Part shown: one piece after another, positions 29,030 through 60,314 of the stretch | How positions within the stretch are numbered: the first letter of the stretch is position 1 | Layout of the letters: each line of letters begins with the position of its first letter | Origin: Halocatena salina | GTDB lineage: Archaea > Halobacteriota > Halobacteria > Halobacteriales > Haloarculaceae | Direction of reading: 5' to 3' | Assembly: GCF_023115355.1 (NCBI RefSeq) | Contig: NZ_CP096019.1 | Location: 1,922,001-1,986,000 of the forward strand | Length of the DNA stretch: 64,000 nucleotides | Position numbers and translations under genes: made by a program | The notes under the pieces: generated by a model | Told to the model about the DNA's origin: nothing | The model's input: the letters and a program-made list of their open reading frames with translations, nothing else | The model's database searches: none

Positions 29030-29124
29030 CTCGTATTAAGCGTTCCGACGAGCCAGCTGTTTCTCGCAGTGAATGATGTGGGATAAATAAATAACTTTAT
29101 AAGTAATGGAGGTGCCAAAACGAA

Positions 29125-29384: not shown

Positions 29385-29471
29385 TTTTTCCGCTCGGGTG
29401 AGCTTCGCTCACCCTCACGCAAAAAACGTGGGCGAAAAAAGGCCGCTCACTTCGTTCGCGGGGGGAAGGAA
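29385..29471. repeat. Dispersed intergenic repeat with poly-T and poly-A arms
   Basis: The stretch contains CACCTTTTTTCCGCTCGGGT, then GAGCTTCGCTC, CAAAAAACGTGGGCGAAAAA and GCTCACTTCGTTCGC. Pieces recur at 15.1, 26.6 and 30.1 kb. It stands just upstream of the gene at 29472 and could form paired stems in RNA. Confidence 0.5.
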
Positions 29472-30023
29472 ATGACGTTGCCGGTGTTTCAGTTCTGGGA
29501 TCGACTGGGCGAGTCGGTGAACATCTCGACCCTCGATGATCGAGCGACGATCTCGAAGGCTGAGCTGTACTACGTCGTGGACGTGGGCACAGGAACGTGG
29601 TGCAAACCCTGTCGGAGCACGGGCTGTGCACACGCCACGCAGATCGAGGAGATCTTAGCAACCGCCGGACTCGGTCGGTCACAAGTGAACTACGACGACC
29701 TGCCCGGCATTGCGAACATCACGCGCTACGAGGCGACCGGGGAGCTGGTCACCACCGGGTGGTTCGGGAACGGCGGCCAGGTCCGCTACCACGAACAGCG
29801 CGACGGAACGGTCGTCCAGTCGGTGTACACGCCCGAGGACGAGCAGGATCCGACTGCGATAACCGAACAACCCGACGCGACGAGTGTGCCAGCCGCGTTG
29901 GTAGGGATGCTGGCGGAGTACTGCCACTATCGCCAGCGCGGCGATCTCGACGGATTGAGACAGCAGTATCCCGACGTGGCTCGTGTCGTGAGCGAGCCGC
30001 CAGCCGTCCACGCTGACGATTGA
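29472..30023 (+). CDS. Haloarchaeal conserved hypothetical protein with a Cys cluster
   Basis: 183 residues from ATG 29472 (MTLPVFQFWDRLGESVNIS). The open frame extends to 29220, but that part crosses the repeat. WCKPCRSTGCAH near residue 44 looks like a metal site (CxxC plus Cys-Ala-His). A TRYEATGELVTTGWFGNGGQVRYHE segment (two strands) follows. The C-terminal quarter is helical (ALVGMLAEYCHYRQRGDLDGLRQQ). Function unknown. GGGGGAAGGAA just before the ATG may be a ribosome site. Confidence 0.6.
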   Translation: MTLPVFQFWDRLGESVNISTLDDRATISKAELYYVVDVGTGTWCKPCRSTGCAHATQIEEILATAGLGRSQVNYDDLPGIANITRYEATGELVTTGWFGNGGQVRYHEQRDGTVVQSVYTPEDEQDPTAITEQPDATSVPAALVGMLAEYCHYRQRGDLDGLRQQYPDVARVVSEPPAVHADD

Positions 30024-46391: not shown

Positions 46392-46631
46392 CTACTGTAA
46401 CCCGATCTCGATGTCGTCCGCCACGTCCCGCATGATCGCGTCGCACAACGGACAGTCGGGCACCGCGACGGCCGACTCATCGCCCGTCTCCACGCCGATC
46501 AGGAGCGATGACTCACAGTCACACGCCGGACACGAGTCCGCCCGACGCCAACCGTACAGCAGGATGGCTTGCTCGATGCCGTCGTTGATATCAGCGATAC
46601 CTTCAAGGTCGTTTGGATCAGAATCGAACAT
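46392..46631 (-). CDS. Small CxxC/CxxC protein next to CRISPR array, copy A
   Basis: 79 residues from ATG 46631 (MFDSDPNDLEGIADINDGIE). It shares M-D-S-PNDLEG, helix, CPAC and then CPLCDAIM with copies B (50476) and C (57432). It lacks the 15-residue SREERSSASRRS insert of those copies. The CPACDC...CPLC arrangement suggests a zinc ribbon; the protein is acidic. It ends 8 bases after the dehydrogenase stop (convergent). Its 5' region has three hairpins, described separately, and the decayed end of a CRISPR array lies 258 bases away. No function recognised. Confidence 0.7.
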   Translation of the reverse strand: MFDSDPNDLEGIADINDGIEQAILLYGWRRADSCPACDCESSLLIGVETGDESAVAVPDCPLCDAIMRDVADDIEIGLQ

Positions 46632-46756
46632 GGTCTCGATTGCGTTACGGAGACCACAGTCGGGTGGTAGTGGCACCCGGCACCCACACAATCCGTGTGG
46701 GTACTTTCAGCGTGTGCGGCCTCCGATCTGATTCTTGCTCCGTTATGGTATAAAAC
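46632..46756 (-). promoter_or_regulatory. Promoter and three-hairpin 5' leader of copy A
   Basis: Reading the minus strand from the TATA box (TTTTATA, 46749-46755), the leader holds three stems. Stem 1 is CCCACAC (46683-46689 / 46695-46701). Stem 2 is CGGGTG/CACCCG (46661-46666 / 46674-46679). Stem 3 is GGTCTC/GAGACC (46632-46637 / 46650-46655), which ends at the base before the ATG. The same plan occurs in copies B and C. Confidence 0.65.
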
Positions 46757-46888
46757 TCTAGGCTATTGGTTGAATCGTGTCGCTGGGTTGGCTTGTCTGG
46801 AGTTTCGAGAGCGGCGGCTCTCGGTTGGGTGTGGCGGCAGAACTGATACGTTTGGTCGGATGGGTGTGGATGTGACTGGTTGGGTTAG

Positions 46889-47359
46889 ATTTAGATGCCT
46901 TGGTGGGTGGCGCAGCTGAACAGTCGGTATACTAGCAGTAGACGGTGACAGTGATCCGCTTCAATGCCTTGGTGGCTGCTGGCACAGTTGAAAGAAACGT
47001 ATCCAATGCGCCGAGGAACAACTATCCATGAGTTGCAATGCCTTCGTCGCCGCTGGCACAGTTGAAAGTCATGGGCGAGATTCGGAGCTGATCGAGCAAG
47101 TCGTTGCAATGCCTTCGTCGCCGCTAGCACAGTTGAAAGACGACAACAATATTGACAATATCGCAACCCTCCATGCGTTGCAATGCCTTCGTCGCCGCTG
47201 GCACAGTTGAAAGAGGACAATGTCTCGATCTACCTCGAGGACGATATCGTTGCAATGCCTTCGTCGCTGCTGGCACAGTTGAAAGGAACGATATCGTGGC
47301 TGTCGCGGAGATCCTGGCCCAAGTTGCAATGCCTTCGTCGCCGCTGGCACAGTTGAAAG
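46889..47359 (-). CRISPR. CRISPR array 1: six repeats plus a decayed terminal repeat
   Basis: 37-base repeats start at 46958, 47032, 47103, 47177, 47249 and 47323, with spacers of 37, 34, 37, 35 and 37 bases. A decayed repeat (about 46889-46923) lies 34 bases before the first. The plus-strand form starts GTTGCAATGCCTTCGTCGCC and ends GGCACAGTTGAAAG. On the minus strand it starts CTTTCAACTGTGCC and ends ATTGCAAC. The decayed end at left means the leader end is at right. The first repeat (46958) has CTTCAATG and GGTGGCTG, closer to array 3. No leader like that of array 3 is seen at 47360-47427. Confidence 0.93.
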
Positions 47360-47427
47360 GAATTCCCACGACCCTGTCGGGGTTAGGTACCCATCGAATT
47401 ATTTGTGTGGAGAAAAATATAGCTCCC

Positions 47428-47760
47428 ATGCTCGACGGACAGCTCACAGTCGACGCCGACCAGCCGGTTCAGTTCACCTTCACGGTACGGAACGGGGGCG
47501 ACGAGCCGGTCACGCTCGAATTTAGCGATGCTTGCAAGGCTGATTTCGTCGTATCGGACGACGCCACACAACAAGAACGCTGGCGGTGGAGCGAGGGGCG
47601 GATGTTCGCCCAAGTCCTCAGCGATCTCACCCTGACGCCGGGCGATACCGAAACGTTCGAAGCCGCGTGGGACGATCCCGCCCCCGGCACCTACACCGCT
47701 CGCGCGGAACTGACTTCAGACGAATCGTGTGCGGCGGCAGCCTCGTTTTCGATCCCATAA
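47428..47760 (+). CDS. BsuPI-like (intracellular proteinase inhibitor domain) protein
   Basis: 110 residues from ATG 47428 (MLDGQLTVDADQPVQFTFTV), the first Met after the array in a frame that also reads through the repeats. Beta-rich single domain: VRNGGDEPVTLEFSDACKADFVV, RMFAQVLSDLTLTPGDTETFE and GTYTARAEL match the BsuPI fold. No signal peptide, so it is cytoplasmic or the name is only structural. It lies 69 bases right of array 1 and on the opposite strand. Confidence 0.72.
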   Translation: MLDGQLTVDADQPVQFTFTVRNGGDEPVTLEFSDACKADFVVSDDATQQERWRWSEGRMFAQVLSDLTLTPGDTETFEAAWDDPAPGTYTARAELTSDESCAAAASFSIP

Positions 47761-47771
47761 GCTCATGATGC

Positions 47772-48692
47772 TCACCGCGCGCTGCTGACGACGGAGATCC
47801 CCAGCGCCATCACGATGCCGCCGATCACGAACAGCGGGCTGACTGCCTCGCCCAGAAAGACGACGCCGAACGCGACGCCGACGACCGGCTGGGCAAAGAA
47901 AAATACCGCAACCGTGCCGGCGTCGACGTACTCCAACCCTTTGTACCAGAGATACCACGCGAGAGCCGTGCTGAAAACGCCGAGATACACCACCGCTCCG
48001 AGTACTGTCGGCTGTTCCAGAACCCCGACCGGATCGATCGAGACTGACGCCAGCTCGATCGGCACCAAAACAGTCATCAAGGGCACTGCGAGGATCGTCG
48101 AATAGGTCGCCGTCTCCAGTGCGGAGTACCGACGCACCAGCGGCTTGCCGTACACCGTGTACGCCGCCCAGCCGAGGCTTGCAAGCAACAACAGCCCGAT
48201 CCCGTGGAGTTGCCCACCGGCGACGCTGACACCGTACCGATCACCGACGACGATCACCGTGCCGACCGTTGCGAGAGCCATCCCGAACAGCTTCTGACGA
48301 GTCAGCGACTCATCGAGAAGACTCACTGCCAGTACCAACGTGAAAACCGGGGTCAACACTGTCAACAGCGCACCTTGGCTCGCGGTCGTGAGTGCCGTAC
48401 CGAGAAACTGTGTTGCCATCGTCACTGCGACCCAAACGGCGAGCACTCCGAACCGATACCATTCCACCCGGCTGAACGACCGTTGGGGCTTCGTGAGCCG
48501 AACGAGCACGAACAGCGTTGCCGCGCCGAGAACGACGCGGACGAACGCCAGCGTCAACGGCGGAATCGCCCCGAATCCCCATTTGCTGACGACGTACATC
48601 CCACCCCACAGCGCGGCTGCGAGCAGCGGGGCGAGGAGATAGCGCTTGGTGTTCGTCTCACTCCGAACATGCTGCGTCGAGCGATCACCCAT
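47772..48692 (-). CDS. EamA/DMT-family membrane transporter
   Basis: 306 residues with ten predicted membrane segments in two EamA repeats: LLAPLLAAALWGGMYVVSKWG starts the first and LLLASLGWAAYTVYGKPLVR the second. Drug/metabolite transporters move small solutes such as nucleotide sugars or amino acids; the substrate is unknown. ATG 48692 is the first Met; the hydrophilic N-terminus is 20 residues. Confidence 0.87.
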   Translation of the reverse strand: MGDRSTQHVRSETNTKRYLLAPLLAAALWGGMYVVSKWGFGAIPPLTLAFVRVVLGAATLFVLVRLTKPQRSFSRVEWYRFGVLAVWVAVTMATQFLGTALTTASQGALLTVLTPVFTLVLAVSLLDESLTRQKLFGMALATVGTVIVVGDRYGVSVAGGQLHGIGLLLLASLGWAAYTVYGKPLVRRYSALETATYSTILAVPLMTVLVPIELASVSIDPVGVLEQPTVLGAVVYLGVFSTALAWYLWYKGLEYVDAGTVAVFFFAQPVVGVAFGVVFLGEAVSPLFVIGGIVMALGISVVSSAR

Positions 48693-48750
48693 TACTGAAA
48701 CCGAAGTTTTCGAACACCCTCAGATACAGGATTCGTATTGCTCGGCGGTT

Positions 48751-49683
48751 TCACTCCTGTCGATCGATCAACTGCCGAGCGACCTTCCGAACGGATTCAT
48801 CGCTCGATAGTTCGTTCTCCCAGCCCAGATTGAGCAGTTCATCGATCGGAAGCAACACGGTCGACACGTCGCCCTCCCAGCCGCGCTCGCCACCGGTGTA
48901 CTCGTAGTCAGGATCGAGACCCATCTCCTCGCTCACGATGTCCGCGATGCGGTCGACCGATGTTGTCGACTGCGTTGCGAGGTTGAACGTGTTGACCGGC
49001 TCGTCGGTGTGTTCGACTACGTGGCACATCGCGTCGACGCACTCGGTGACGTGCATGTAGGATTTCGTCTGTTTGCCGTTCCCGAGGATGGTGAGCGTCT
49101 CTGGATCTTCAGTCAGCTTCTCGACAAAATCGGGCACGACGCCAGCACCGAACCGGGGACCGACGATGTTGGCAAACCGGAACGTCCAGACGGTGAAATC
49201 GTGGGTGTGGCCGTACACCGAGAGCAGTGCCTCTTCACCGAGTTTGGTCGCGCCGTAGACGCTGATCGGTTCGAGCGGACCGTACGTTTCGGGTGTCGGC
49301 TCGCCCGCTTCTCCGTACACCGTACACGAGGAGGTAAACGCGACGTTCGAGACGCCGACTTCCTGCATCCGTTCGAGGATGGTGTGGGTCATCCGGCTGT
49401 TGGTCTCGAACTGTTCGCGTGGCTCGTCGGTGTCGACGTATTTGTCGGCGGCTGCGAGATGAAACACCGCGTCGACATCGGGGGTGATGACGTCAGCGAC
49501 GACCGCCGGATCGGTCAGATCGCCCTCCATGAACGTCGCGGCGTCGGGCACTGATTCGCTAACGCCGTTTGATAGGTCATCGACCACGAGCACGTCGTTG
49601 TCGTCGGCGAGCCGTTCGGCAAGCACCGAGCCGATCAGTCCTGCGCCACCAGTGACGACGAGGCGCTTTCCGCTGAGATCCAT
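48751..49683 (-). CDS. NAD-dependent sugar epimerase/dehydratase (extended SDR)
   Basis: 310 residues from ATG 49683 (MDLSGKRLVVTGGAGLIGS). The NAD motif is TGGAGLIGS; catalytic residues lie in SSCTVYGEAG and SVYGATKLGEE (YxxxK near residue 150). The closest match is the UDP-glucose 4-epimerase-like group. Likely acts on nucleotide sugars for surface glycans. A Met seven codons upstream is in frame but is outside the family start. Confidence 0.88.
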   Translation of the reverse strand: MDLSGKRLVVTGGAGLIGSVLAERLADDNDVLVVDDLSNGVSESVPDAATFMEGDLTDPAVVADVITPDVDAVFHLAAADKYVDTDEPREQFETNSRMTHTILERMQEVGVSNVAFTSSCTVYGEAGEPTPETYGPLEPISVYGATKLGEEALLSVYGHTHDFTVWTFRFANIVGPRFGAGVVPDFVEKLTEDPETLTILGNGKQTKSYMHVTECVDAMCHVVEHTDEPVNTFNLATQSTTSVDRIADIVSEEMGLDPDYEYTGGERGWEGDVSTVLLPIDELLNLGWENELSSDESVRKVARQLIDRQE

Positions 49684-49788
49684 ACCGGGTGTGGTAGCGA
49701 TCACAGTAAGTGTATTCCGATACGTAGCAGCTCTGTTCGAACAGCCGATACGATTACGGTGGTATCGATCAGGGCTGCTGATTATTGG

Positions 49789-50376
49789 TCAGTCACTCGT
49801 CTGTGGCGTCGGGTCCGCTCGGGTGCGGCCTGGAACCTGAGCGACGTCAGCGTAGGCCACGAGTTCCCGGCCCAGTCGGTCGAGCCGGTCGGCTACCTCC
49901 GGGTCCTGAACGTCGTCGTCGGTGATCCGTGTAGGGGACTCGGGGATCGCCACCTCTGTCGGCAGGGTCCACGCGTGCAGCGTCCGACAGACCGCCCGGA
50001 GGTGGGCGAGCGCCGTCCCCGGAAACTCCCCTCCGGCCACCTCGAGCAACCCGACGGTCGTGTCCGCCAGCTCTTCGCGCCCACAGTGATCGAGGGCGTT
50101 TTTCAGTGCTCCCGAATAGGAGCCGTGGTAGTTCGGCGTGCCAAGCACCACGCTGTCCGCTTCAGCGATCGTCGCCGTGAGGCGTTCGGTGTCCTCGCTT
50201 CCAGCCTCGGTCTCGGCGTTCAACATCGGTAGCTCCAGAGCACGGAGATCTAGCAGCGTCGTCGTTCCGCCGGCCCCGGCTGTCGCCGACAGCACCCGAT
50301 GGAGGGCGATCCGAGTCCGGCTCTCATCCCGGAGGCTCCCACAGAGGGCGACGACGCGGGGCTGTGTGCCAGTCAT
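49789..50376 (-). CDS. NADPH-dependent FMN reductase family protein
   Basis: 195 residues from ATG 50376 (MTGTQPRVVALCGSLRDESR). The flavodoxin-like fold shows the FMN phosphate loop CGSLRDESRTRIAL and VVLGTPNYHGSYSGALKNALDH, the signature of NAD(P)H:FMN/quinone reductases such as chromate reductase. Electron acceptor unknown. An alternative Met at 50397 is less likely. Confidence 0.9.
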   Translation of the reverse strand: MTGTQPRVVALCGSLRDESRTRIALHRVLSATAGAGGTTTLLDLRALELPMLNAETEAGSEDTERLTATIAEADSVVLGTPNYHGSYSGALKNALDHCGREELADTTVGLLEVAGGEFPGTALAHLRAVCRTLHAWTLPTEVAIPESPTRITDDDVQDPEVADRLDRLGRELVAYADVAQVPGRTRADPTPQTSD

Positions 50377-50475
50377 CGCTATCGAGTAGGTGATCAAATC
50401 AGTAAAACGTTCCCTGAAACAATATTTTGGAAGGGAGGTTACAGGACCGTTGGCGGCCGCCCGTGGGGAGCCGGG

Positions 50476-50760
50476 TCAGGTGAGGTCGAAGTCGACGCCG
50501 TCGGCGATCGTCCGGACTACAGCATCACACAACTGGCAGTCCGGGGCTGCCACGGTCTCCTCGTTCTCAGTTTCGACACCGATGCGGAGCGCCGAGTCAC
50601 AGCCACACGCCGGGCACTCGTCGGTCTTGGCCCAGCAGTAGCGCAGGATCGTCTCTTCGATATCGTCGACGGTCTGCGACCGTCTGCTTGCGGAACTTCG
50701 TTCCTCTCTGCTCGTGAGCGCGTCGGTACCTTCAAGGTCGTTTGGGTTAGAATCGTACAT
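50476..50760 (-). CDS. Small CxxC/CxxC protein, copy B
   Basis: 94 residues from ATG 50760 (MYDSNPNDLEGTDALTSREE). A polar insert SREERSSASRRSQT precedes VDDIEETILRYCWAKTD, then CPACGCDS and CQLCDAVV. Four or five cysteines suggest a zinc-binding fold. It is almost identical to copy C; differences are a handful of residues such as SQT for SAT and ETVAA for EAVSA. Part of the segmental duplication; next to it lie a decayed CRISPR repeat and a toxin-antitoxin pair. Confidence 0.72.
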   Translation of the reverse strand: MYDSNPNDLEGTDALTSREERSSASRRSQTVDDIEETILRYCWAKTDECPACGCDSALRIGVETENEETVAAPDCQLCDAVVRTIADGVDFDLT

Positions 50761-50885
50761 GGTCTTCAGCCTGCGATTGGAGACCTTTACCGGGTGTTCC
50801 TGCACCCGGGTCCCACACGGTGACCCGTGTGGAACTTACTCGTGTTCAGCCTCCGATCTCATCGTTGTCCCGTCATATTATAAAA
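50761..50885 (-). promoter_or_regulatory. Promoter and three-hairpin 5' leader of copy B
   Basis: The TATA box TTTTATAATAT lies at 50875-50885, so transcription should start near 50850, leaving an untranslated leader of about 90 bases. Stem 1: CCACACGG (50813-50820) with CCGTGTGG (50825-50832). Stem 2: CCGGGTG (50790-50796) with CACCCGG (50803-50809). Stem 3: GGTCT (50761-50765) with AGACC (50781-50785), abutting the ATG. Confidence 0.68.
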
Positions 50886-51145
50886 CACTAGGTATCGCGT
50901 TCGTACTGTCGTCGTAGTGATCTTCATCGTGAGCGTCGTTACTCTGGGATCGTATCGATGTCGATCGGGTTCTCCGGTTCACGCCGCCTCGTGATCGTAC
51001 GTCGATCGTATCGGATAGCTATTTGTCATATTCGTCATGCTGTCGAGGTAAGTTCATGCTCGTCTGGACGGTGGTCGGCTTTGGTGTGGCCACGAGCGCG
51101 ACAACTTCGAGAGCAACAGCTTCGAGAGCAAATCCGGAGCGGTCA

Positions 51146-51182
51146 GTCTGGGTGTTTCGGTGGGTGTTGATACAGTTGAGAG
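51146..51182 (-). repeat. Decayed solo CRISPR repeat
   Basis: 24 of 37 positions agree with the array-3 repeat, with the end ACAGTTGAGAG almost intact. It closes the duplicated segment after the copy-B gene; the paralogous site is at 58087. No spacer or second repeat is recognisable. Confidence 0.5.
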
Positions 51183-51218
51183 ATAACGGTGGCGGACTCG
51201 ATGGCGAAAAAAGACAGT

Positions 51219-51620
51219 TCACGCAACCGCGTGGTTGCGATTGTTTTCATGATCTCCGGAGAGATCGATGTCAAGCCGGATGTCGTCGTACGGGACGACC
51301 GGCCGTTTGGAGCGCCCATCTTGCTCGAACTGGATAAGCCCGAGCGTTTCCAACTCGTTCGTATTCCGATGGACTTCTTTAACATCCCGTTCGACGAGTT
51401 CAGCCGTCTCACGGATGCTTGATGGTTCTTCCTCCGAGATAGTCCGGAGAAGTTCGAGATTCACCGCGCTCAGGATGCGTGCAACATCCTCTTCACGTTC
51501 GATATTGAGGACTCGGTGAGGTTCGACATCCTCCCCTCGTTCAACTGCTGCAATCCATTCACGGGTCTCTTGTCGTGTTCGGTCGTCTTCCCCGACCCGA
51601 ACGATCAGTGTGTCTGTCAT
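51219..51620 (-). CDS. HVO_A0114-type HTH protein, probable antitoxin
   Basis: 133 residues. The N-terminal 45 residues (MTDTLIVRVGEDDRTRQETR, then REEDVARILS) lead to a winged-helix core ELLRTISEEEPSSIRETAELVERDVKEVHRNT, quoted in part as SSIRETAELVERDVKEVHR. A wing FEQDGRSKRPVVPYDDI follows. This family, named from a Haloferax gene, typically follows a DUF6516 gene and is proposed to be its antitoxin and repressor. It lies 76 bases downstream of the DUF6516 gene on the same strand. Confidence 0.78.
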   Translation of the reverse strand: MTDTLIVRVGEDDRTRQETREWIAAVERGEDVEPHRVLNIEREEDVARILSAVNLELLRTISEEEPSSIRETAELVERDVKEVHRNTNELETLGLIQFEQDGRSKRPVVPYDDIRLDIDLSGDHENNRNHAVA

Positions 51621-51696
51621 TGCCGGTTTCTTTTACTTCATCACGCTGTTTCATTGTTCTGTGCGCGTGCAGATGGCCAACTGACTTAGTGGGTCA

Positions 51697-51993
51697 TTAT
51701 TCGTTTTGTTCCCACCATTCATCAACTTCCCGGAGGAATCGGTCGTGGAGGACCATCATCCCTGGAAAGTCAATGATTTCGACACCGTCTGTAGTGTGAC
51801 GTTCATGGCCTTTTTCGAGTTCGTGTGAGTTATCGTACCGCAGAATCGTGTTGCCATTAGTATCGCCAAAGTGCAGGCGGTATTTCCACCCACAGGGATA
51901 GGTATCGGACTCGGTCGGTCGCATGGTAATCGACCGAACCATCCCGTCCTTGTAGGTCGTTTGTTCTTTGACTACATCACTCTCATCTGCCAT
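51697..51993 (-). CDS. DUF6516-like probable toxin
   Basis: 98 residues from ATG 51993 (MADESDVVKEQTTYKDGMV); another Met two codons upstream (51999) is possible and lies at the edge of the operator. A beta-rich body (GWKYRLHFGDTNGNTILRYD) and a helical end (MMVLHDRFLREVDEWWEQNE) fit DUF6516, which is linked to toxin-antitoxin pairs in archaea and bacteria. Its activity is not established. It is the first gene of the pair. Confidence 0.72.
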   Translation of the reverse strand: MADESDVVKEQTTYKDGMVRSITMRPTESDTYPCGWKYRLHFGDTNGNTILRYDNSHELEKGHERHTTDGVEIIDFPGMMVLHDRFLREVDEWWEQNE

Positions 51994-51999
51994 CTGCAT

Positions 52000-52047
52000 A
52001 TGTTGGTAATAGGCCCAACATCTATAGTGTTGGGGTAAGGCCCAACA
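52000..52047 (-). promoter_or_regulatory. Tandem operator palindromes of the toxin-antitoxin operon
   Basis: Two inverted repeats with ATGTTGG/CCAACAT-type arms: 52000-52021 (ATGTTGG and CCAACAT, 8-base centre) and 52028-52047 (TGTTGGG, six bases, CCCAACA). They are about 27 bases apart centre to centre, on one helix face within error, between the start codon and a TTATATG TATA-like box at 52046-52052. Cooperative autorepression by the HTH protein is likely. Confidence 0.72.
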
Positions 52048-52096
52048 TATAACGGTGCACCATCTCGGAAGCAACGTTCCCTACAAGGTCTATCGC

Positions 52097-52133
52097 GTTT
52101 CAATGCCTTCGTCGGTGCTGGCACAGTTGAAAG
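52097..52133 (-). CRISPR. Solo CRISPR repeat with both trailer and leader flanks
   Basis: One intact 37-base repeat (GTTTCAATGCCTTCGTCGG...CACAGTTGAAAG on the plus strand). Left of it, 52063-52096 matches the 34 bases left of array 3 (GGAAGCA...CTACAAGGTCTATCG). Right of it, 52134-52265 matches the array 3 leader. Thus it has the whole outer frame of an array but no spacer. Confidence 0.85.
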
Positions 52134-52265
52134 AGGGGGTGGAAATCTGTCCAGAGGTCCAATAAAGCTTTCTCCATCGGTCTCATCGCCCACCGTCTTC
52201 GTGGACCCCCCCTGTACACGAACTTTATAAAGGTCCACGAAGGATAACGGCAACACGTTCCGCAA
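52134..52265 (-). promoter_or_regulatory. CRISPR leader with promoter (at the solo repeat)
   Basis: Nearly identical to 60045-60175. TATA box TTTATAAA at 52224-52231, flanked by the inverted repeat CTTCGTGGAC (52197-52206) and GTCCACGAAG (52233-52242). Transcription on the minus strand would start near 52200 and run into the repeat after about 65 bases. Confidence 0.75.
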
Positions 52266-52503
52266 CAGGTGACCTCCCACCGAGTCCCACACCCAGATGA
52301 TGCACGTGGTCCGATACAGTATTTTCGTCTGTGGATGGTACTCCGACCCTAAATCACCGCCGGACTAGCCGACCGGAGTACGACGGCAATCACCCGCTGG
52401 CAGGCGGAGAACGCCCGCCCACTGCGTTCGTATCGACTACAGCGACCCATCCACCACTTTAATTTCCTCAGACTTTTATTTTATTCTAAAACTATATGCA
52501 TAT
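52266..52503. other. Gene-free stretch right of the solo-repeat leader
   Basis: 238 bases with no supported gene. The middle is GC-rich with no recognisable repeat. The last 35 bases turn strongly AT-rich and hold the promoter of the small zinc protein at 52504 (CTTTTATTTTA at 52473-52483). Confidence 0.4.
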
Positions 52504-52611
52504 ATGGGGAAGGAAGTGCAATGTCACAACTGTGGTTTTTGGACGGAGATCGAGCCACACAGGAACGGCGAAAACATTTGCAAGCGGTGTGAAGAGAAGT
52601 TACGATACTGA
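52504..52611 (+). CDS. Zinc-ribbon microprotein (35 residues)
   Basis: ATG 52504 to TGA 52611. The sequence starts MGKEVQCHNCGFWTEIEP and contains a second pair ICKRCEEK, a complete CxxC...CxxC ribbon spaced by 16 residues. An AT-rich promoter is placed about 25 bases upstream, so a leaderless mRNA is likely. Convergent with the gene at 52613, with one base between stops. It is of the type of the haloarchaeal zinc-finger microproteins. Confidence 0.68.
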   Translation: MGKEVQCHNCGFWTEIEPHRNGENICKRCEEKLRY

Positions 52612-52612
52612 C

Positions 52613-53287
52613 TTACTGAGATGACGTGACGGTGTGTTTCGCTTCCTCGAAGACATCGTCTGCGATGGCCGCGAGCGCGGGGAGATGCCACATCTCAGCC
52701 AGTTCCGTGAATCGCGCCCGAACGGCTCGGCCTGTCTCGATGGCGCGCTCGTAGCCGTTGATCGAATCGTCGTGGATGTAGAAGACGAACCGCGTGTACG
52801 CCAGTTCCTCCGGACTGAACACGCCACGTTTGAGGAGATCACGCGGTCGCGTTCGCTCCGTTCCATCGGTGTCAATGAAAAAGTCGATCGCTTCGGGAGG
52901 GTAGCCGAGAACGACGCCTAAGCGGCGGTGCCACGCCCGATTACGGTCGGCTTTCTCGCTCGATGGCAGCAGATCTAAACGACCGTCCGTCGGGGCGATG
53001 AACCAGTCGTTTCCGGTTCCCTGTCCGATCCGCCGATACGATAGCTCGAACAGCTCGCACAGCGCTATCAGTCCTCGATGAGGTGTCCAAGGATGCTCCG
53101 GAAAGGCGAACTCTGTGGCAGAGATCTCCGCCGCTGGCTTGTCGCCAGCCACCACGAGCGCAAGCAACAATGGATCACGGTAACACGCGTCGTTTTCGGC
53201 GTGTCGCTCGAAATACCGACCCAACTCGCATCGCTGTCTCTCCGTCAGGGTTTCCGCGCATGGCGGGACTGGTGACGGAACGAGCAT
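52613..53287 (-). CDS. Unknown protein, paralogue pair member 1
   Basis: 224 residues. No family recognised. It shares with the 53549 gene the ordered motifs LALVVAGDKP, HRRLGVVLGYPPEAIDFFI, RTRP, GVFSPEELAYTRFVF, GYERAIETGR and LAEMWHLPAL. A cytoplasmic mixed alpha/beta protein is expected; no signal peptide or membrane segment. Base composition is as in neighbours. A long AT-rich upstream gap contains a decayed CRISPR repeat (53468). Confidence 0.6.
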   Translation of the reverse strand: MLVPSPVPPCAETLTERQRCELGRYFERHAENDACYRDPLLLALVVAGDKPAAEISATEFAFPEHPWTPHRGLIALCELFELSYRRIGQGTGNDWFIAPTDGRLDLLPSSEKADRNRAWHRRLGVVLGYPPEAIDFFIDTDGTERTRPRDLLKRGVFSPEELAYTRFVFYIHDDSINGYERAIETGRAVRARFTELAEMWHLPALAAIADDVFEEAKHTVTSSQ

Positions 53288-53467
53288 ATATTTTCTATAA
53301 TGTCTCTTGGTGAATATAGATGGTGGTTAGGTCCTTTCGACTCGCGTGGACTGCTCACGGGGTCATGGAAGTGGTGAGATGACACTCGACGATGCTCGGT
53401 GCTCGTGTTCGGCAAATCGATCACCGTCCCTCCTGCCAGCGGACATCGTTGTCGATTTCGTCGGTGT

Positions 53468-53504
53468 GTCTCAGGTCCTTAGTCGATACTGGTACAGTCG
53501 AAAG
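53468..53504 (-). repeat. Decayed solo CRISPR repeat
   Basis: 28 of 37 positions agree with the array-3 repeat, including the end ACAGTCGAAAG and the inner CCTTAGTCGATACTGG. It lies in the gap between the two paralogous unknown genes, 44 bases from the stop of the second. Confidence 0.6.
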
Positions 53505-53548
53505 ATACACTCGGATAGTGTGAGTAATATTTTATAATTACTACTGTT

Positions 53549-54187
53549 TCAGCGAGTCGCGCGGTGCAGTTGATCGACGAGAAAGCGATAGACGATCTCG
53601 GTTTGGTGTTCGAGCGCCGGTAGCTCCCATCGGTCGGCGAGTTCGAGCAACAGATCACGGTTGGCCTTCCCCTGTTCGATGGCCCGCTCGTAGCCGTGGA
53701 CGGAATCGACCGGGACGTGGAAGACGAACTGGGAAAACGCCAGTTCGTACGCGGAAAATTGTCCACTCGCGATGAACTCTGCTGGCCGCGTTCGGTCGGA
53801 GAGTTCCTGTTCGATAAAATGGTCGATCGCCGCCCGTGGATAGCCAAAAAACCACCCCAACCGACGATGATACTCCGGGCGATCGTGCACTTTTTCGGGC
53901 AGATAGCTGATTCGCAAGGGGTCCCGCGCCACATACCACGACGACGATGGCGCAACGCGCCCGTATGCAAGACCTAACCGGTCAAAAAAATCGATCGGGG
54001 AGCGAGCCAGACACCTCCACGGCTCCGTCGAAACGATCGTCCCCGGCTTCTCACCAGCCAGAACCAACGCCAACCGAAGCGGCTCCCTGTCGTCTTCGAT
54101 CCCCTCGAAATAGCTGAGAAAGTCCGCGACTGCCACCCGCTGGGTGGACGTGAGATCGATCTGTCCGATCGCCTGATTGGTCGCCAT
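53549..54187 (-). CDS. Unknown protein, paralogue pair member 2
   Basis: 212 residues. It matches member 1 in LALVLAGEKP, HRRLGWFFGYPRAAIDHFI, RTRP, GQFSAYELAFSQFVF, GYERAIEQGK and LADRWELPAL; the N-terminal third is less similar (IDLTSTQRVAVADFLSYFEG). Same strand and order, so a tandem duplication followed by divergence. No function known; presence amid CRISPR remnants and a toxin-antitoxin pair suggests an accessory, perhaps defence-linked, role, which is only inference. Confidence 0.6.
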   Translation of the reverse strand: MATNQAIGQIDLTSTQRVAVADFLSYFEGIEDDREPLRLALVLAGEKPGTIVSTEPWRCLARSPIDFFDRLGLAYGRVAPSSSWYVARDPLRISYLPEKVHDRPEYHRRLGWFFGYPRAAIDHFIEQELSDRTRPAEFIASGQFSAYELAFSQFVFHVPVDSVHGYERAIEQGKANRDLLLELADRWELPALEHQTEIVYRFLVDQLHRATR

Positions 54188-54263
54188 ACTTCTTAGTTCA
54201 CATCTGATTGATGAAATAAAATTCGAAATCGGTAACGCAGATTACTTATTGTGATATATTAAT

Positions 54264-54377
54264 TCAAATGTATTTGAACGGTTTATCGCCGCAGTACGGG
54301 CACATGCCCATCCGCTTGCCGTCTTCGATGTCTTCGTTTTCCAGCTTGACGTTGCAGCTGGCACAGAAGTTCGTCAT
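54264..54377 (-). CDS. Zinc-ribbon microprotein (37 residues)
   Basis: ATG 54377 to TGA 54264. MTNFCASCNVKLENEDIEDG is followed by MCPYCGDK: two CxxC pairs separated by 18 residues, a minimal zinc ribbon. CTGGAGGAGAGTGC precedes the ATG and provides a strong ribosome site. Flanks are AT-rich. Different sequence from the 52504 microprotein. Confidence 0.66.
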   Translation of the reverse strand: MTNFCASCNVKLENEDIEDGKRMGMCPYCGDKPFKYI

Positions 54378-54509
54378 GCACTCTCCTCCAGACGTTTTCT
54401 CACCTCCTATGTCTATAATAGTATTGTATATTAAAAAATAAATTCGATAATGTAGATTTTATTATTGATACGATGTGATATTGGCTTGGCTCGTCTTCGG
54501 GAGTGATAG

Positions 54510-54546
54510 CCACCATGGCCGTGCTAGTTGCTGGCACAGTTGAAAA
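54510..54546 (-). repeat. Decayed solo CRISPR repeat
   Basis: The last 18 bases (TTGCTGGCACAGTTGAAA) differ from the array-3 repeat by one base; the first half is eroded apart from ATGGCC. Situated between the zinc microprotein and the CPBP protease gene. Confidence 0.6.
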
Positions 54547-54645
54547 ATGTCAACAACTATGAGGATAAGCGATTCAGGCAGCACGATCAATACGGGGAAC
54601 TCCTCTATAACGCTACCTTCCCGTCTTCAACCTCATCGGAGAGGA

Positions 54646-55404
54646 TTAGAGAAACGGTAGCAGGGTCAGATTCGTCCACGAGAGCGCGTGTACCGTCGCC
54701 ACGACGAGGACACCCTGTGTTCGGTCATAGACCGTGCAGAACACGATACCCTGTGGAAACAGGTACGCGAAGTACGGAACAAGGAACGCAGCACCGCCGC
54801 CGAGTCCGTACAGTCCGTGTGCGAGGGTGAAGCAGACTGAACTGAGGACGATCGCCGTCACCGGATGGAATCCATCGAGCAGGCGTTCTTGGATGAATCC
54901 GCGGAAGAATTGTTCTTCGGCCATCGCTGGAAGGAGATACAACCCGAGAAAGACGAACGGTGCGAGTGACGGCCACGTCATTAACCCGACATCCATACTC
55001 CCAGTTATCGGATCGATTGGTATGCTCATAGTCGTCAAAACCCAAGTCGTCCCTTCGGCAGCGATCTCCAACCCGACAGTCCCCAGAACGACCCACACGA
55101 GATCACGGACGCTCGGACGACTGAACTGGAGGCGGTCCCACCGGCCTGTGAGAAACACGTAGCCCCCCACGAACAGAAAGAATCCGATCTGCGTTGCTTT
55201 CGACACGGCTAGGGAGGAGAAATTTGGGGACACAGGCTCTAGCATCCCTATCACCGTCGGTCGGTAAATCAAGAAGACGAGGAAGCTGAACACTGCACCA
55301 CCGACTGTCAGCCCGAGTGCTTCCACAAGTGCACGGAGTCGTGTGGTCTGCTGGTTGTCGTCGGTGCGACTCAACCGCAGTCTGTCGCGGAGTGTATTCG
55401 ACAT
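54646..55404 (-). CDS. CPBP family intramembrane metalloprotease
   Basis: 252 residues, about seven membrane segments. The CPBP/ABI motifs are AEEQFFRGFIQERL (EExxxR) near residue 163 and FTLAHGLYG near 193, with a third motif HALSWTN at the end. Such proteases can mature prenylated or small peptides, and in bacteria often accompany bacteriocin immunity. Substrate unknown. A Met start at 55404 with a short hydrophilic N-terminus. Confidence 0.85.
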   Translation of the reverse strand: MSNTLRDRLRLSRTDDNQQTTRLRALVEALGLTVGGAVFSFLVFLIYRPTVIGMLEPVSPNFSSLAVSKATQIGFFLFVGGYVFLTGRWDRLQFSRPSVRDLVWVVLGTVGLEIAAEGTTWVLTTMSIPIDPITGSMDVGLMTWPSLAPFVFLGLYLLPAMAEEQFFRGFIQERLLDGFHPVTAIVLSSVCFTLAHGLYGLGGGAAFLVPYFAYLFPQGIVFCTVYDRTQGVLVVATVHALSWTNLTLLPFL

Positions 55405-55607
55405 TCGTGTCTTGGCAACCCTCCGTGCCTACATATTACCTGTAGACCTTTGTCGCCATTTTTTGAGGGTGTGACGCCGTCCATGGAGTGATCTCGTTTC
55501 CCTGTACACCGTCTTCCTCCAACCCGTAACCGGGTGGACGACCGTACAGACAGGACTGCCCTCGCTGAGACAGTAGAGTCAAGTGAGTGAAAAGCCAGCG
55601 AAAACCT

Positions 55608-56267
55608 GTGACAGACCGATCGAGTTCTCTGCTTACACCGGCTCAGCGCGACCGTCTCGGGCGGAATTTCGACGACGTGGATGCGGCGAAACGTCGACGT
55701 GACCAACAGAGGATCCGACAGCGACTCAACGCTGGTATCGAAGATTACGAACTCTTAGCGGAACTCCCTGACCGGCAGTTCGAACTGGCATTCAAGGATC
55801 GTCAGGAAGACCACATCCGCCGGGGGCTTGCCGATGCATATCGGACTCTGGAACGGATTCGCACCGTTCATGAACTCGATCGGGATAAGATCCTCCAATT
55901 GGCGCGTGAACGGGACCGAGATCGAACCGATGACAGCGCTCTCACACTGCGGACACGCGCCGACTGGCGATGCGAATTCGAGGACGAAATCGCGTCCCAA
56001 TATCAGCCAACCCGATGGAAACGGCTCTCTGACGTGCTGCTGAAGATCGGTCTCGCACTACTGATATTTGTCAGCTTCCTCGCTGTTATTGCACCGGATT
56101 TCACGAACGGCCTCGGAAGCATCCCTGGGATCGTGGGTGCGGGCGTTCTGGCGGTGGGACTACTTATCGTTGGCCTTCGTTCGGTGAAATACGACGTTGT
56201 CCCAATGGTGCGAGCTCTTTATGAGGATCCACGGAGATCTCTTCGAACTGTTTGGGAGCAAATGTGA
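55608..56267 (+). CDS. Haloarchaeal coiled-coil membrane protein of unknown function
   Basis: 219 residues from GTG 55608 (VTDRSSSLLTPAQRDRLGR); a GTG at 55587 adds seven residues. The N-terminal half is charged and helical (KRRRDQQRIRQRLNAGIEDYELL), a pattern seen in many haloarchaeal hypothetical proteins often on mobile elements. Two membrane segments follow near residues 140-190 (IGLALLIFVSFLAVI and GIVGAGVLAVGLLIVGL). Function unknown. Confidence 0.62.
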   Translation: MTDRSSSLLTPAQRDRLGRNFDDVDAAKRRRDQQRIRQRLNAGIEDYELLAELPDRQFELAFKDRQEDHIRRGLADAYRTLERIRTVHELDRDKILQLARERDRDRTDDSALTLRTRADWRCEFEDEIASQYQPTRWKRLSDVLLKIGLALLIFVSFLAVIAPDFTNGLGSIPGIVGAGVLAVGLLIVGLRSVKYDVVPMVRALYEDPRRSLRTVWEQM

Positions 56268-56684
56268 AGTGTCACTTGCGGCGCAACGACCTCTCACTAT
56301 TGTGACCGACGGTGAAACAGATCAGAGCGAGGGATACCGGGCCTTGTGAATTGTTCTATGACGCCCTAGTATCCAGCAAATCGCTCCGTGATTTGTGAGA
56401 CAGGGAGGCACTCTGCTTTGAGTTCTGTAGATCCCTGAGTCCTGCATCGCCGCCGAGTCAGACAAACGGACTGTGGCGACCATCCCACAGGATAACGGGA
56501 AACCAGTATTCGAGATCGGTACACGGCGATCCCACCACCGTTGCATTCGGTCGATAACACAACGATGGGCAGCAATGGCTCTGTTGAAGATCTCAGTAAC
56601 TCGACGCCTGTGTCGCTGCAACAGCGGTTAGGTAGTCCGCGACCTAATCGGTATAATTACGTTCACTGAAGGACCCGTTCGGTT
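56268..56684. other. Gene-free stretch, possibly a decayed gene
   Basis: 416 bases with no intact ORF of supported origin. On the minus strand, frames of 70 and 99 codons overlap across 56322-56621, which could be a frameshifted remnant, but I cannot identify a family. The last 40 bases (TAATCGGTATAATTACG) provide the TATA box for the methyltransferase at 56685. Confidence 0.35.
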
Positions 56685-57299
56685 ATGGAGTTCGCCAACC
56701 GAGAGCGAATGTACGGACAGGAGGAGTACTACTGGGGTACGGAGCCAAACGAGATGGCCAAAAAGACGGTGGAACTCGCTCCAGAAACCGAATCTGGTGT
56801 CACGGCGATCGACATTGGTGCTGGCGAAGGTCGGGACGCGGTGTTTTTCGCTGAACACGGATGGAGTGTGTACGCGCTGGAGGTTTCTCCCAACGGGTTG
56901 CTGAAGGCCGAACGCCTCGCAGAGCAGCGCGGGGAGAGCATTCAGACTATTGAAGCGGATGCAAACGACGCCACCCTCCCAGAAACGGTTGACGTGGTTT
57001 ACTCGGCTGGTGCGATTCAGTATATTCGCCCCGAGAATCGGGAACGTCAGTTCGACCATTTCAAGCAGAAGACGGCTTCTGTGGGTGTTCATGCTCTGTT
57101 CGCGTTCGTCGACCACCCCGATGTTCCGACAGCGCCGGACTGGACAGAAAACGAATACTTCTACGCACGAGGTGAGCTGATGGAGTACTATCAGGATTGG
57201 AACGTCATCGAGTTTGAAGAGGTGATCTTTGACGACGAATCGTCTGGAGAATCACACCAACACGCGGCCGAGATACTATTCGTACGGAAACCGAACTAG
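56685..57299 (+). CDS. Class I SAM-dependent methyltransferase (TehB/Tellurite-resistance-like)
   Basis: 204 residues. SAM motif I is AIDIGAGEGRDAVFFAEHGW near residue 42. Motif II is EADANDATLPETVDVVYSAG, and YYWGTEPNEMAKK precedes the core as in TehB-like enzymes. Acceptor unknown. TATA-like TATAATTA at 56652-56659 is about 30 bases from the ATG. Confidence 0.83.
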   Translation: MEFANRERMYGQEEYYWGTEPNEMAKKTVELAPETESGVTAIDIGAGEGRDAVFFAEHGWSVYALEVSPNGLLKAERLAEQRGESIQTIEADANDATLPETVDVVYSAGAIQYIRPENRERQFDHFKQKTASVGVHALFAFVDHPDVPTAPDWTENEYFYARGELMEYYQDWNVIEFEEVIFDDESSGESHQHAAEILFVRKPN

Positions 57300-57431
57300 A
57301 TGGTCTGTACCTGTCCCTTTGACATCTGATACATAAATTACGTACTGTGTGTCTACTGCCGTAATCCTCCGGCCCACAGATGGGATGAAAATTCGTGGAG
57401 GGAACCACTCCTGTCCGTCTTCGGGATCGGC

Positions 57432-57716
57432 TCAGGTGAGGTCGAAGTCGACGCCGTCGGCGATCGTCCGGACTACAGCATCACACAGCTGGCAGTCCGG
57501 AGCACTCACGGCTTCCTCGTTCTCAGTTTCGACACCGATGCGGAGCGCCGAGTCACAGCCACACGCCGGGCATTCGTCGGTCTTCGCCCAGCAGTAACGC
57601 AGGATCGTCTCTTCGATATCATCGACGGTCGCAGACCGTCTGCTTGCGGAACTTCGTTCCTCTCTGCTCGTGAGCGCGTCGGTACCTTCAAGGTCGTTTG
57701 GGTTAGAATCGTACAT
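57432..57716 (-). CDS. Small CxxC/CxxC protein, copy C
   Basis: 94 residues from ATG 57716, almost identical to copy B (MYDSNPNDLEGTDALTSREE, CPACGCDS, CQLCDAVV). DNA differences are mostly at third positions, so the coding sequence appears under selection since the duplication. Likely zinc-binding; function unknown. Confidence 0.72.
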   Translation of the reverse strand: MYDSNPNDLEGTDALTSREERSSASRRSATVDDIEETILRYCWAKTDECPACGCDSALRIGVETENEEAVSAPDCQLCDAVVRTIADGVDFDLT

Positions 57717-57838
57717 GGTCTTTGCCTCTATGTGGAGACCATCTCCGGGTGTCCTGAGCACCCGGCCCCACACGATCCGTGTGGGTACTGTAACGCGTGC
57801 AGCCTCCGATCTCATCGTTGTCCTGTCATATTATAAAA
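57717..57838 (-). promoter_or_regulatory. Promoter and three-hairpin 5' leader of copy C
   Basis: TATA box TTTTATAATAT at 57828-57838. Stem 1: CCCACACG (57767-57774) with CGTGTGGG (57778-57785). Stem 2: CCGGGTG (57745-57751) with CACCCGG (57759-57765). Stem 3: GGTCT (57717-57721) with AGACC (57736-57740), abutting the ATG. Loops differ from copy B while the arms are kept. Confidence 0.68.
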
Positions 57839-58086
57839 CACTAGGTATCGCGTTCGTACTGTCGTCGTAGTGATCTTCATCGGGCGTGTCGTTACTCTGG
57901 AATCGGGTCGCTGTCGATCGGATCCTCCGGTTCACGCCGCCTCGTGGTCGTGCGTCGATCGTATCGGATAGCTATTTGTCATATTCGTCGTGCTATCGGA
58001 GCAGATTAATACTCGTCGCCGGGTGATAGTCGGATCTGGGATGGTTACGAGCGTGTCTAGCTTCGAGAGCGGAGACGGAGCGGTCA

Positions 58087-58123
58087 GTCTGGACGTTTCG
58101 GTGGGTGTGGATACAGTTGAAAG
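58087..58123 (-). repeat. Decayed solo CRISPR repeat
   Basis: About 24 of 37 positions agree with the array-3 repeat, and the end ATACAGTTGAAAG is well kept. Paralogous to 51146-51182 at the end of the duplicated unit. Confidence 0.5.
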
Positions 58124-59226: not shown

Positions 59227-59280
59227 AAGACTATTTTCATATTTTCATCTCGGAAGCACGTTCTCTACAAGGTCTATCGA

Positions 59281-60044
59281 GTTTCAGTGCCTTCATGGCT
59301 GCTGGCACAGTTGAAAGCCAGCCAAGTGGACCTCAGAGAAGCCCGAATGCTCCGTTTCAATGCCTTGGTCGCCGCTGGCACAGTTGAAAGGATGACCAAT
59401 TCCTCGCTCAGTAGTTATCTGAGTCGTTTCAATGCCTTGGTCGCCGCTGGCACAGTTGAAAGATCTCTATCCTCTGGATAAATCATAGATTCACAGGCGT
59501 TTCAATGCCTTGGTCGCCGCTGGCACAGTTGAAAGGGTCGTCGAGATCATGGTCGAAGGTGGAGATGGGCGGTTTCAATGCCTTGGTCGCTGCTGGCACA
59601 GTTGAAAGCTGTTCCTGTTGACTGGTAGTAGTTGCCTGAAATTTCGTTTCAATGCCTTGGTCGCTGCTGGCACAGTTGAAAGACACGAGGTTTTCTTCAG
59701 CGATCTCCCAGAGTCGATGTTTCAATGCCTTGGTCGCTGCTGGCACAGTTGAAAGCGTTGATACGGATACGGCAGCGCGGACGATTGCAGTTTCAATGCC
59801 TTGGTCGCTGCTGGCACAGTTGAAAGCACAAATCCATCGATCCGCGACAGCAACGTGGAGGTGTTTCAATGCCTTGGTCGCTGCTGGCACAGTTGAAAGC
59901 GACGGAGTTCAGAGAGCGCAGAGCCGTCATAACTGTTTCAATGCCTTGGTCGCTGCTGGCACAGTTGAAAGTGACGGCCATTAGCGGTTCGGGCGATCCG
60001 AAGATCCGTTTCAATGCCTTGGTCGCTGCTGGCACAGTTGAAAG
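59281..60044 (-). CRISPR. CRISPR array 3: eleven repeats, ten spacers
   Basis: 37-base repeats start at 59281, 59354, 59426, 59499, 59572, 59646, 59719, 59790, 59863, 59935 and 60008, with spacers of 34-37 bases, all different. The plus-strand form begins GTTTCAATGCCTTGGTCGC and ends CTGGCACAGTTGAAAG; read on the minus strand it ends with ATTGAAAC, the classical repeat end and crRNA handle of type I systems in archaea. The repeat at 59281 is decayed (GTTTCAGTGCCTTCATGGC), marking the old end. Repeats 2-4 have GCCGCTGG and 5-11 GCTGCTGG. The leader is at right. Confidence 0.97.
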
Positions 60045-60175
60045 AGGGGGTAAAAATCCGTGGAGCGATCCAATAAAGCTTTCTCCATCGGTCTCATCGC
60101 CCACCGTCTTCGTGGACTCCCCCTGTACACGGATCTTATAAAGGTCCACGAAGGATAACGGCAACACGTTCCGCA
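60045..60175 (-). promoter_or_regulatory. CRISPR leader with promoter of array 3
   Basis: Contains TATA box CTTTATAAG (60135-60143, minus strand) enclosed by the inverted repeat CTTCGTGGAC (60108-60117) and GTCCACGAAG (60144-60153). An AATAAAGCTTTCTCC tract lies about 30 bases from the first repeat. Start of the pre-crRNA is expected near 60110. The same sequence adjoins the solo repeat at 52134-52265. Confidence 0.8.
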
Positions 60176-60314
60176 TCCGGATTCAGTCCCGCCGGGAGCA
60201 GCGCGCCTCTACCCACAGCATCGCTGCCCATCGGGGTATAGCCACCGATCGCCTACCGCCGAGAACACAACCGGACAGCGAAACCGCCTAACCCGTCCCG
60301 GCGTTAGGCGCGGT

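Follow-up and report, generated by a model that had tools for sequence, protein, structure and literature searches.

A candidate start-codon leader RNA with two competing helices in Halocatena salina and other Halobacteriales

Leaders of three CxxC/CxxC genes

The minus strand of a 64,000-nucleotide stretch of the Halocatena salina genome (NZ_CP096019.1, positions 1,922,001 to 1,986,000; the whole stretch is called the window) carries three paralogous genes, named A, B and C, for small CxxC/CxxC proteins. Each gene is preceded by a leader with several hairpins, which are probably part of a previously undescribed haloarchaeal RNA element that turns protein production on and off. A sequence-only reading of the window had described three short stems in a fixed order between a TATA box and the ATG, the last ending exactly at the start codon. 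The stems indeed occur in all three copies in that order, with a TATA-like box upstream of each set. The last base of stem 3, at 46632 in A, 50761 in B and 57717 in C, directly abuts the ATG (46629-46631, 50758-50760 and 57714-57716, respectively).

From 5' to 3', the leaders of A, B and C consist of the TATA-like box, a GGAGGCY strand, hairpin 1, hairpin 2 (CGGGTG and CACCCG around a loop), a GGTCTCC strand, an AGACC arm and the ATG. The GGTCTCC strand has two possible partners. It may pair with the AGACC arm at the ATG, forming stem 3, or with the GGAGGCY strand near the predicted transcript start, forming a helix, P1, that encloses hairpins 1 and 2. Thus the stems of the sequence-only reading stand, but their independence does not, as stem 3 is one of two competing states and P1 is the other. 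In the minimum-energy folds of A and B, the 5' arm of stem 3 goes into P1, which surrounds the two hairpins; only C folds into stem 3. The hairpin-2 pattern GGGTG-N7-CACCCG has six strand-matches at three loci of the window (A, C and 29169), compared to 0.03 expected from shuffles; B is not counted because its loop has six nucleotides. The folding z-scores are -3.7 (A), -4.0 (B) and -2.6 (C), and only -1.8 for a fourth leader on the plus strand at 29123-29218.

Four diverged relatives (loci L015, L021, L017 and L022) have retained P1, hairpin 2 and stem 3 as structures, although the sequences have changed. The P1, shared and AUG-side strands are GAAGACC/GGTCTTC/AAGACC in L015, GGAGGCC/GGTTTCC/GGAAACC in L021, GGGACCG/CGGTTCC/GAACC in L017, and GGAACCG/CGGTTCC/GAACC in L022. 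Stem 1 in its original form, CCACAC/GTGTGG, is present in the close copies and was not seen as such in these four. The covariation check had a divided outcome: no pair is changed on both sides among nine close Halocatena copies, and thus the compensatory evidence, which is positive, comes from distant members only.

The CxxC/CxxC protein itself has a narrow distribution. Its search matched six of 146 genomes of the family, all within the genus, the named ones being Halocatena pleomorpha and Halobacteriales archaeon YIM A00010. Among 392 genomes of the order, it was found in five of the genus; six weak matches elsewhere turned out on reading to be parts of other proteins or other frames. A protein-based search with the 94-residue protein and its relatives gave no match in plasmid and phage records or in IMG/VR, and the family members tested had no Pfam or NCBIfam match above the cut-off. 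The AlphaFold model of the A/B/C protein is uninformative (mean predicted local distance difference test score 54). By a protein-based search alone, the leader would have seemed genus-specific.

Distribution, covariation and promoter spacing

Two covariance models of the leader were constructed, R1 from nine close copies and R2 from 27 diverse leaders. With R1 at E<=1, 17 of 142 genomes of the family match. All seven genomes of the genus are among them, with between 1 and 17 matches, and each of the ten others has a single match. Eight of these ten loci show the architecture when read by eye; it is absent from L064 and L068. In an even sample of 392 genomes of the order, 152 have an R2 match at E<=0.01, and these cover 51 of 95 genera. 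These genome counts, for which the best 10 candidates per genome were scored, depend on rough E-values; if those hold, about four genomes would be expected. In a sample of 148 genomes of the phylum, an unstated share of them from outside the order, six match; H. salina is one of the six, and every one of them belongs to this order. R2 has 24 matches in the H. salina genome, where 28 candidates were scored. Within the window, the leaders of A, B and C and the copy at 29123 match at E 1.2e-10 or better (the last at 1.2e-10, and with R1 at 2.6e-5), and the next match has E 0.18. By computation, stems and compensatory changes do exist outside this genome, a point on which the sequence-only reading had beforehand staked its proposal.

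In IMG/VR, 37 stretches were selected by the exact hairpin-2 pattern. R2 gave E 2.8e-7 and 1.5e-6 for two of them, and 0.0007 and worse for the rest. Six were read by eye: the AUG-side arm is visible in L252, L263, L267 and L269, and was not seen in L259 and L255.

The set used for the comparison of pairings contains 126 leaders. Three were left out by hand, L086 and L091 with the start codon further downstream and L103 with ACG for ATG; L092, L095 and L096 are also missing, probably being at contig ends. As Halocatena paralogues are over-represented, one leader was retained per distinct shared 7-mer, which left 30 leaders, and their pairing partners were permuted 2000 times. The leaders' own pairing totals were reached by none of the 2000 permutations, neither for stem 3 (419 compared to a mean of 325, standard deviation 13, maximum 374) nor for P1 (501 compared to 435, standard deviation 9, maximum 466). 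For two decoys, the coding positions +4 to +17 and the region upstream of the leader, 1767 and 962 of the 2000 permutations, respectively, were at least as high. An energy-based swap on 83 less redundant leaders scored 30 for stem 3 and 53 for P1, compared to nine, eight and six for three control pairings.

Column counts on 104 distinct rows agree. P1 is paired in 88.7% and stem 3 in 85.9% of cells, compared to 68.6% and 66.1% after shuffling, and none of 500 shuffles is as high for either helix. Cells changed on both sides number 178 in P1 and 163 in stem 3, compared to 38 and 55 in shuffled data. For hairpin 2 the pairing of 100% (80.9% shuffled) is due to construction, as the hairpin was located by its pairing, and only its both-side changes, 62 compared to 6, are informative. 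Both helices can form with at least five base pairs, one mismatch being allowed, in 123 of the 126 leaders, and share at least three nucleotides in 110 of the 123, no chance level having been computed for these counts.

Promoter positions were considered in the 86 leaders with sufficient upstream sequence. A TATA-like box, defined as seven of eight positions or better, precedes 69 of them, compared to 26 of 86 control windows. By group, the box is present in 10 of 13, 34 of 35 and 25 of 38 leaders, and in each group its first T lies at a median of 31 nucleotides before the 5' arm of P1. Given the geometry of archaeal promoters, transcription would start at or just before P1. Thus the computed start falls at the 5' end of the leader, and not inside or downstream of the stems. 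A leaderless start was considered and rejected, as only one of the 126 leaders has a TATA-like box 15-40 nucleotides before the ATG. A palindromic operator between the TATA-like box and P1 was found in six of 86 leaders and three of 86 controls.

In the leaders displayed, the ATG directly adjoins the AUG-side arm or is separated from it by a single base. Hairpin 2 ends 23-36 nucleotides before the ATG, most often 29, with the spread bounded by the search range of 22-38. Its loops, of five to seven bases (the range searched), are variable, with 81 distinct sequences among the 126 leaders, many of which occur in paralogues that share a genome. The terminal bases of the 56 six-base loops are C/A in 43 cases, U/G in 10 and a Watson-Crick pair in none, which would fit an exchange between similar wobble pairs. 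A pseudoknot involving this loop was rejected, as complements to the loop are at least as long in swapped leaders as in its own.

Genes behind the leaders

Genes downstream of the leaders belong to unrelated families, and many encode predicted zinc-finger proteins (SWIM, CxxC, C2HC). The 62 loci read outside Halocatena are high-scoring matches rather than a random sample, and were sorted by simple motifs. A SWIM-type zinc finger is encoded in frame at 25 of them, and in another frame or after a stop codon at three. The remainder comprises PC..C or C2HC proteins (5), proteins of the OB-fold type (2), short K/R-P-rich open reading frames (ORFs; 8) and others (19); in the last two groups several loci have Cys-pair motifs in another frame and many look truncated. 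The K/R-P-rich ORFs, of 31-70 codons for amino acids, stand behind L196, L203, L208, L226, L236, L240, L244 and L249, and at several of these loci another frame encodes a CPRCG-type zinc-ribbon-like stretch. Of ten downstream proteins tested, three contain SWIM (PF04434) above the Pfam cut-off and seven gave nothing at E<=0.01; for Pfam-negative proteins, zinc fingers are predicted from the spacing of Cys and His. The OB-fold label, assigned by eye, found no confirmation in Pfam or NCBIfam. On viral contigs, one leader stands before a protein that looks HNH-like by eye. No ribosomal-protein gene was recognised downstream of the leaders read.

Haladaptatus megaplasmids have up to 24 matching SWIM places each (24 in NZ_CP085339.1, 23 in NZ_CP085302.1), an expansion on single plasmids. 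In five Haladaptatus stretches (L294, L305-L308) a leader match, with E from 0.0045 to 6.7e-9, runs precisely up to the start codon annotated for a SWIM gene. Seven plasmid SWIM genes from Haloferax (two), Halorubrum, Haloarcula, Haloprofundus, Halorussus and Natrinema have no leader match at E<=1; the same holds for another two SWIM genes in L294, of which one is cut. Only some SWIM genes bear the leader. A strong match in L308 (1109-1194, NZ_CP085340.1) is not followed by any gene annotated in the PLSDB table, whereas its counterpart, stretch L215, reads into a SWIM-like ORF. The Haloferax SWIM zinc-finger gene HVO_0362, located in a provirus, is named in PMC11899642 among the genes up-regulated without Cas11b.

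Most of the newly found Halocatena leaders that were read, including the fourth leader of the window (Table 1), stand before a C-x2-C-x9-H-x3-C protein of 45-52 amino acids. Counting partial matches, five genomes of the genus have from 12 to at least 18 matches each to this protein, the best 18 candidates per genome being scored; another 29 genomes have one match each with E 4e-4 or worse. In the 15 copies read in this genome, a 183-residue protein or its remains follow downstream, and together they form a dispersed unit of approximately 1 kb. Examples are the window region 29095-30023 on the plus strand and L155-L168, where the small C2HC protein has 48-52 amino acids; in L165-L168 a short dispersed repeat seems to have taken the place of the zinc-finger part. 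Among 59 relatives searched, the 183-residue protein was found only in the seven genomes of the genus, with 1 to 41 matches each, fragments included (20 in this genome, 41 in one relative). A third type of leader (L169, L170) forms stem 3 from GGTGTT/AACACC, and a single base separates this stem from the ATG of a different Cys-rich protein.

Clustered regularly interspaced short palindromic repeat (CRISPR) arrays, and one single repeat with array-flanking sequence, lie among the CxxC/CxxC genes at about 46960-47360, 52096-52269 and 59280-60180 of the window. The repeat at these arrays begins CTTTCAACTGTGCCAGC. Such repeats occur within approximately 1.5 kb of eight of 18 CxxC-family loci, remnants included, and near none of 16 loci of the dispersed unit or the third leader type. 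Degenerate repeat-like sequences at 51138-51181 and 58079-58122 are situated upstream of B and C, within stretches common to both. Two further loci of the family are altered. Compared to L022, L006 (G000:C1:1784877-1788098) has lost the ATG (CATGG to CACAG) and one base of the shared strand, which suggests joint decay of leader and gene. In L025 (G042:C28:18432-21503), a 3' remnant of a CxxC gene is fused to CRISPR-flanking sequence, possibly a product of recombination.

Table 1. Positions of the leaders and associated genes in the window
Feature	Position	Strand	Basis
Copy A, TATA-like box	46748..46755	-	sequence, spacing statistics
Copy A, P1 5' arm (CGGAGGCCGCA)	46715..46725	-	minimum-energy fold
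Copy A, hairpin 1	46681..46703	-	fold, sequence
Copy A, hairpin 2 (CCGGGTG..CACCCG)	46661..46680	-	pattern count, fold
Copy A, shared strand (P1 3' arm; contains stem 3 5' arm, 46650-46655)	46648..46658	-	fold
Copy A, AUG-side arm of stem 3 (GAGACC), abuts ATG	46632..46637	-	sequence
Copy A, CxxC/CxxC protein, 79 amino acids	46392..46631	-	sequence
Copy B, TATA-like box	50878..50885	-	sequence
Copy B, P1 5' arm (GGAGGCT)	50848..50854	-	fold
Copy B, hairpin 1	50813..50832	-	sequence
Copy B, hairpin 2	50790..50809	-	sequence
Copy B, shared strand GGTCTCC	50779..50785	-	fold
Copy B, AUG-side arm of stem 3	50761..50765	-	sequence
Copy B, CxxC/CxxC protein, 94 amino acids	50476..50760	-	sequence
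Copy C, TATA-like box	57831..57838	-	sequence
Copy C, P1 5' arm (GGAGGCT)	57801..57807	-	sequence
Copy C, hairpin 1	57768..57784	-	sequence
Copy C, hairpin 2	57745..57765	-	sequence
Copy C, shared strand GGTCTCC	57734..57740	-	fold
Copy C, AUG-side arm of stem 3	57717..57722	-	fold
Copy C, CxxC/CxxC protein, 94 amino acids	57432..57716	-	sequence
Fourth leader, TATA-like box	29095..29102	+	sequence
Fourth leader, P1	29127-29138 with 29189-29199	+	R1 and R2 matches, sequence
Fourth leader, hairpin 1	29147-29167	+	sequence
Fourth leader, hairpin 2	29168-29186	+	sequence
Fourth leader, AUG-side arm, then ATG 29216-29218	29210-29215	+	
C-x2-C-x9-H-x3-C protein behind the fourth leader, 52 amino acids	29216..29374	+	sequence
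Protein of unknown function, 183 amino acids, second gene of the same dispersed unit	29472..30023	+	sequence

A candidate strand-exchange switch and its alternatives

The leader is rather likely to be a cis-acting translational switch built on strand exchange. The sequence statistics support the two competing pairings, their covariation, the promoter spacing and the position of the start codon. Two mutually exclusive helices, one of them at the translation start, are one mark of a translational riboswitch, another being a conserved aptamer that binds a small ligand directly, and by computation both helices are present. The earlier proposal of a regulatory leader RNA whose stem 3 could hide the start codon is likewise well supported by the covariation across genera and the positions of promoter and start codon.

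The mechanism might be as follows. The first ten or so bases of the transcript, the 5' arm of P1, would pair with a strand some tens of bases downstream. The resulting helix, likely the first to form as the RNA emerges, would close a junction that holds hairpins 1 and 2 and leave the bases before the AUG single-stranded, so that translation could start. A shared strand that leaves P1 would pair with the bases directly before the AUG, and the stem 3 thus formed would block the ribosome. The balance is assumed to be shifted by something that binds the region of hairpin 2 and the junction. P1 would be the ON state, as it leaves the bases before the AUG unpaired, stem 3 would be the OFF state, and an effector presumably exists. 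Since the same leader precedes unrelated protein families, a common effector is likelier than self-regulation by each product.

Several observations weigh against this scheme. Taken leader by leader, the swap test is less sharp: for stem 3, 14 of 30 leaders pair better with their own partner than with 90% of the swapped ones, and for P1 the number is 9 (7 base pairs) or 16 (10 base pairs) of 30, with 1 of 30 for the decoy. The number of pairs with any both-side change is saturated, being reached by 55 (P1), 30 (stem 3) and 46 of 500 shuffles, and the column counts lean towards pairing, as their register was fitted. Nearest-neighbour energies favour P1 in 93 of 123 leaders, and stem 3 is often imperfect, for example GGCCTTC with GAAAGCC (six of seven pairs); stem 3 may rarely form unaided. 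Finally, the leaders compared showed no unpaired core conserved as tightly as is typical of ligand-binding riboswitches.

The main alternatives differ in what would move the strands. Ribosomal-protein leaders act by autogenous control, and here too each product might bind hairpin 2 or the junction of its own leader and stabilise stem 3. Many of the products are predicted to bind zinc and could bind RNA, and the stem of hairpin 2 is kept while its loops vary, also among paralogues, which could provide copy-specific recognition. However, the same leader precedes unrelated folds (SWIM, OB-fold-like, CxxC, C2HC and, on a viral contig, HNH-like), and autogenous control is thus a possible but doubtful explanation. 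A riboswitch for a ligand or metal, such as zinc or another thiophilic metal, that controls a zinc-finger regulon could explain why a single class of RNA precedes several unrelated families, zinc binding being predicted for many of them, and a P1-closed junction overlapping an expression platform is riboswitch-like. On the other hand, hairpin 1, the junction and the loops differ widely in sequence between groups, unlike most known aptamers, and the downstream genes read are not recognisable as transporters or enzymes of one pathway; we consider this variant unlikely.

The sequence-only reading had suggested a thermosensor, and stem 3, being weak and located at the AUG, could respond to temperature or salt directly; both alter the output of a synthetic riboswitch in Haloferax volcanii, according to PMC8241225. 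However, the median energy difference between P1 and stem 3 hardly shifts, from -3.9 kcal/mol at 37 C to -4.7 kcal/mol at 60 C (calculated with standard parameters for 1 M NaCl and not molar KCl), P1 covaries too, and a plain RNA thermometer needs no competing helix. A simple thermosensor is thus not supported by the computation, and a temperature or salt sensor without a dedicated effector seems improbable in general. The least probable alternative is a DNA element mimicking RNA hairpins, either an operator with repeated half-sites or a recombination site before mobile gene cassettes. In its favour, the 5' arm of P1 and the AUG-side arm form almost identical direct repeats that flank an inverted repeat, and one leader-bearing unit in Halocatena is dispersed and multi-copy. 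But the shared 7-mer exists in 30 versions, with matching changes in both of its partners, which is ill-suited to one DNA-binding protein, and the spacing to the TATA-like box is constant.

The sequence-only reading knew of no described leader of this form, and this holds for Rfam 15 and for the literature searched. At the gathering score, the window and 20 loci gave tRNAs only. Low-threshold scans of six and 12 loci matched no more than two families at the leaders, namely mir-7927 with 22 of 75 bits in L246 and, in antisense orientation, CRISPR-DR29 with 20 of 39 bits in L115. No such leader is named in the titles and abstract openings of papers on haloarchaeal riboswitches, structured RNAs, zinc-finger and SWIM proteins or start-codon leaders, a coverage outside which most subscription papers and preprints fall.

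Bacterial translational riboswitches use mutually exclusive helices, and the leader described here resembles them in that a P1-closed 5' structure competes with a helix at the translation start. It differs in being archaeal, in having no known ligand and no strongly conserved aptamer core found, in masking the AUG side rather than the Shine-Dalgarno sequence, and in its many small zinc-finger-like products. According to PMC8241225, a single natural riboswitch of archaea had been determined by experiment as of 2021, the fluoride riboswitch of Thermococcus kodakarensis. The latter is likewise a natural archaeal leader presumed to act on translation, whereas the leader described here has no Rfam match in the loci scanned, precedes other genes and has another architecture. 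The same paper describes a synthetic riboswitch that masks both the Shine-Dalgarno sequence and the AUG and regulates translation in Haloferax volcanii. The theophylline riboswitches there work by burying the AUG, and thus a switch of this kind can act in haloarchaea, although they are man-made, respond to theophylline and contain Shine-Dalgarno sequences (PMC8241225). A structured leader in Halobacteria, that of S15, is listed among archaeal ribosomal-protein leaders in PMC7247131; unlike the leaders read here, those precede ribosomal-protein operons. The main text of PMC2864571 does not mention Halobacteria, haloarchaea or Haloarcula, and PMC7002113 reports Rfam families in a halite community.

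It is possible, if speculative, that the leader represents a new natural class of RNA switch across Halobacteriales, with 24 matches in this genome, serving as a shared signal-responsive valve for a zinc-finger-rich regulon on chromosomes, megaplasmids and viruses; this could be a zinc or metal riboswitch, or a single RNA-binding protein could recognise all the leaders. A structured, covarying start-codon leader in 152 of 392 genomes of the order would change the existing picture. If true, it would also offer an initial way into the regulation of many haloarchaeal zinc-finger-like proteins that are uncharacterised.

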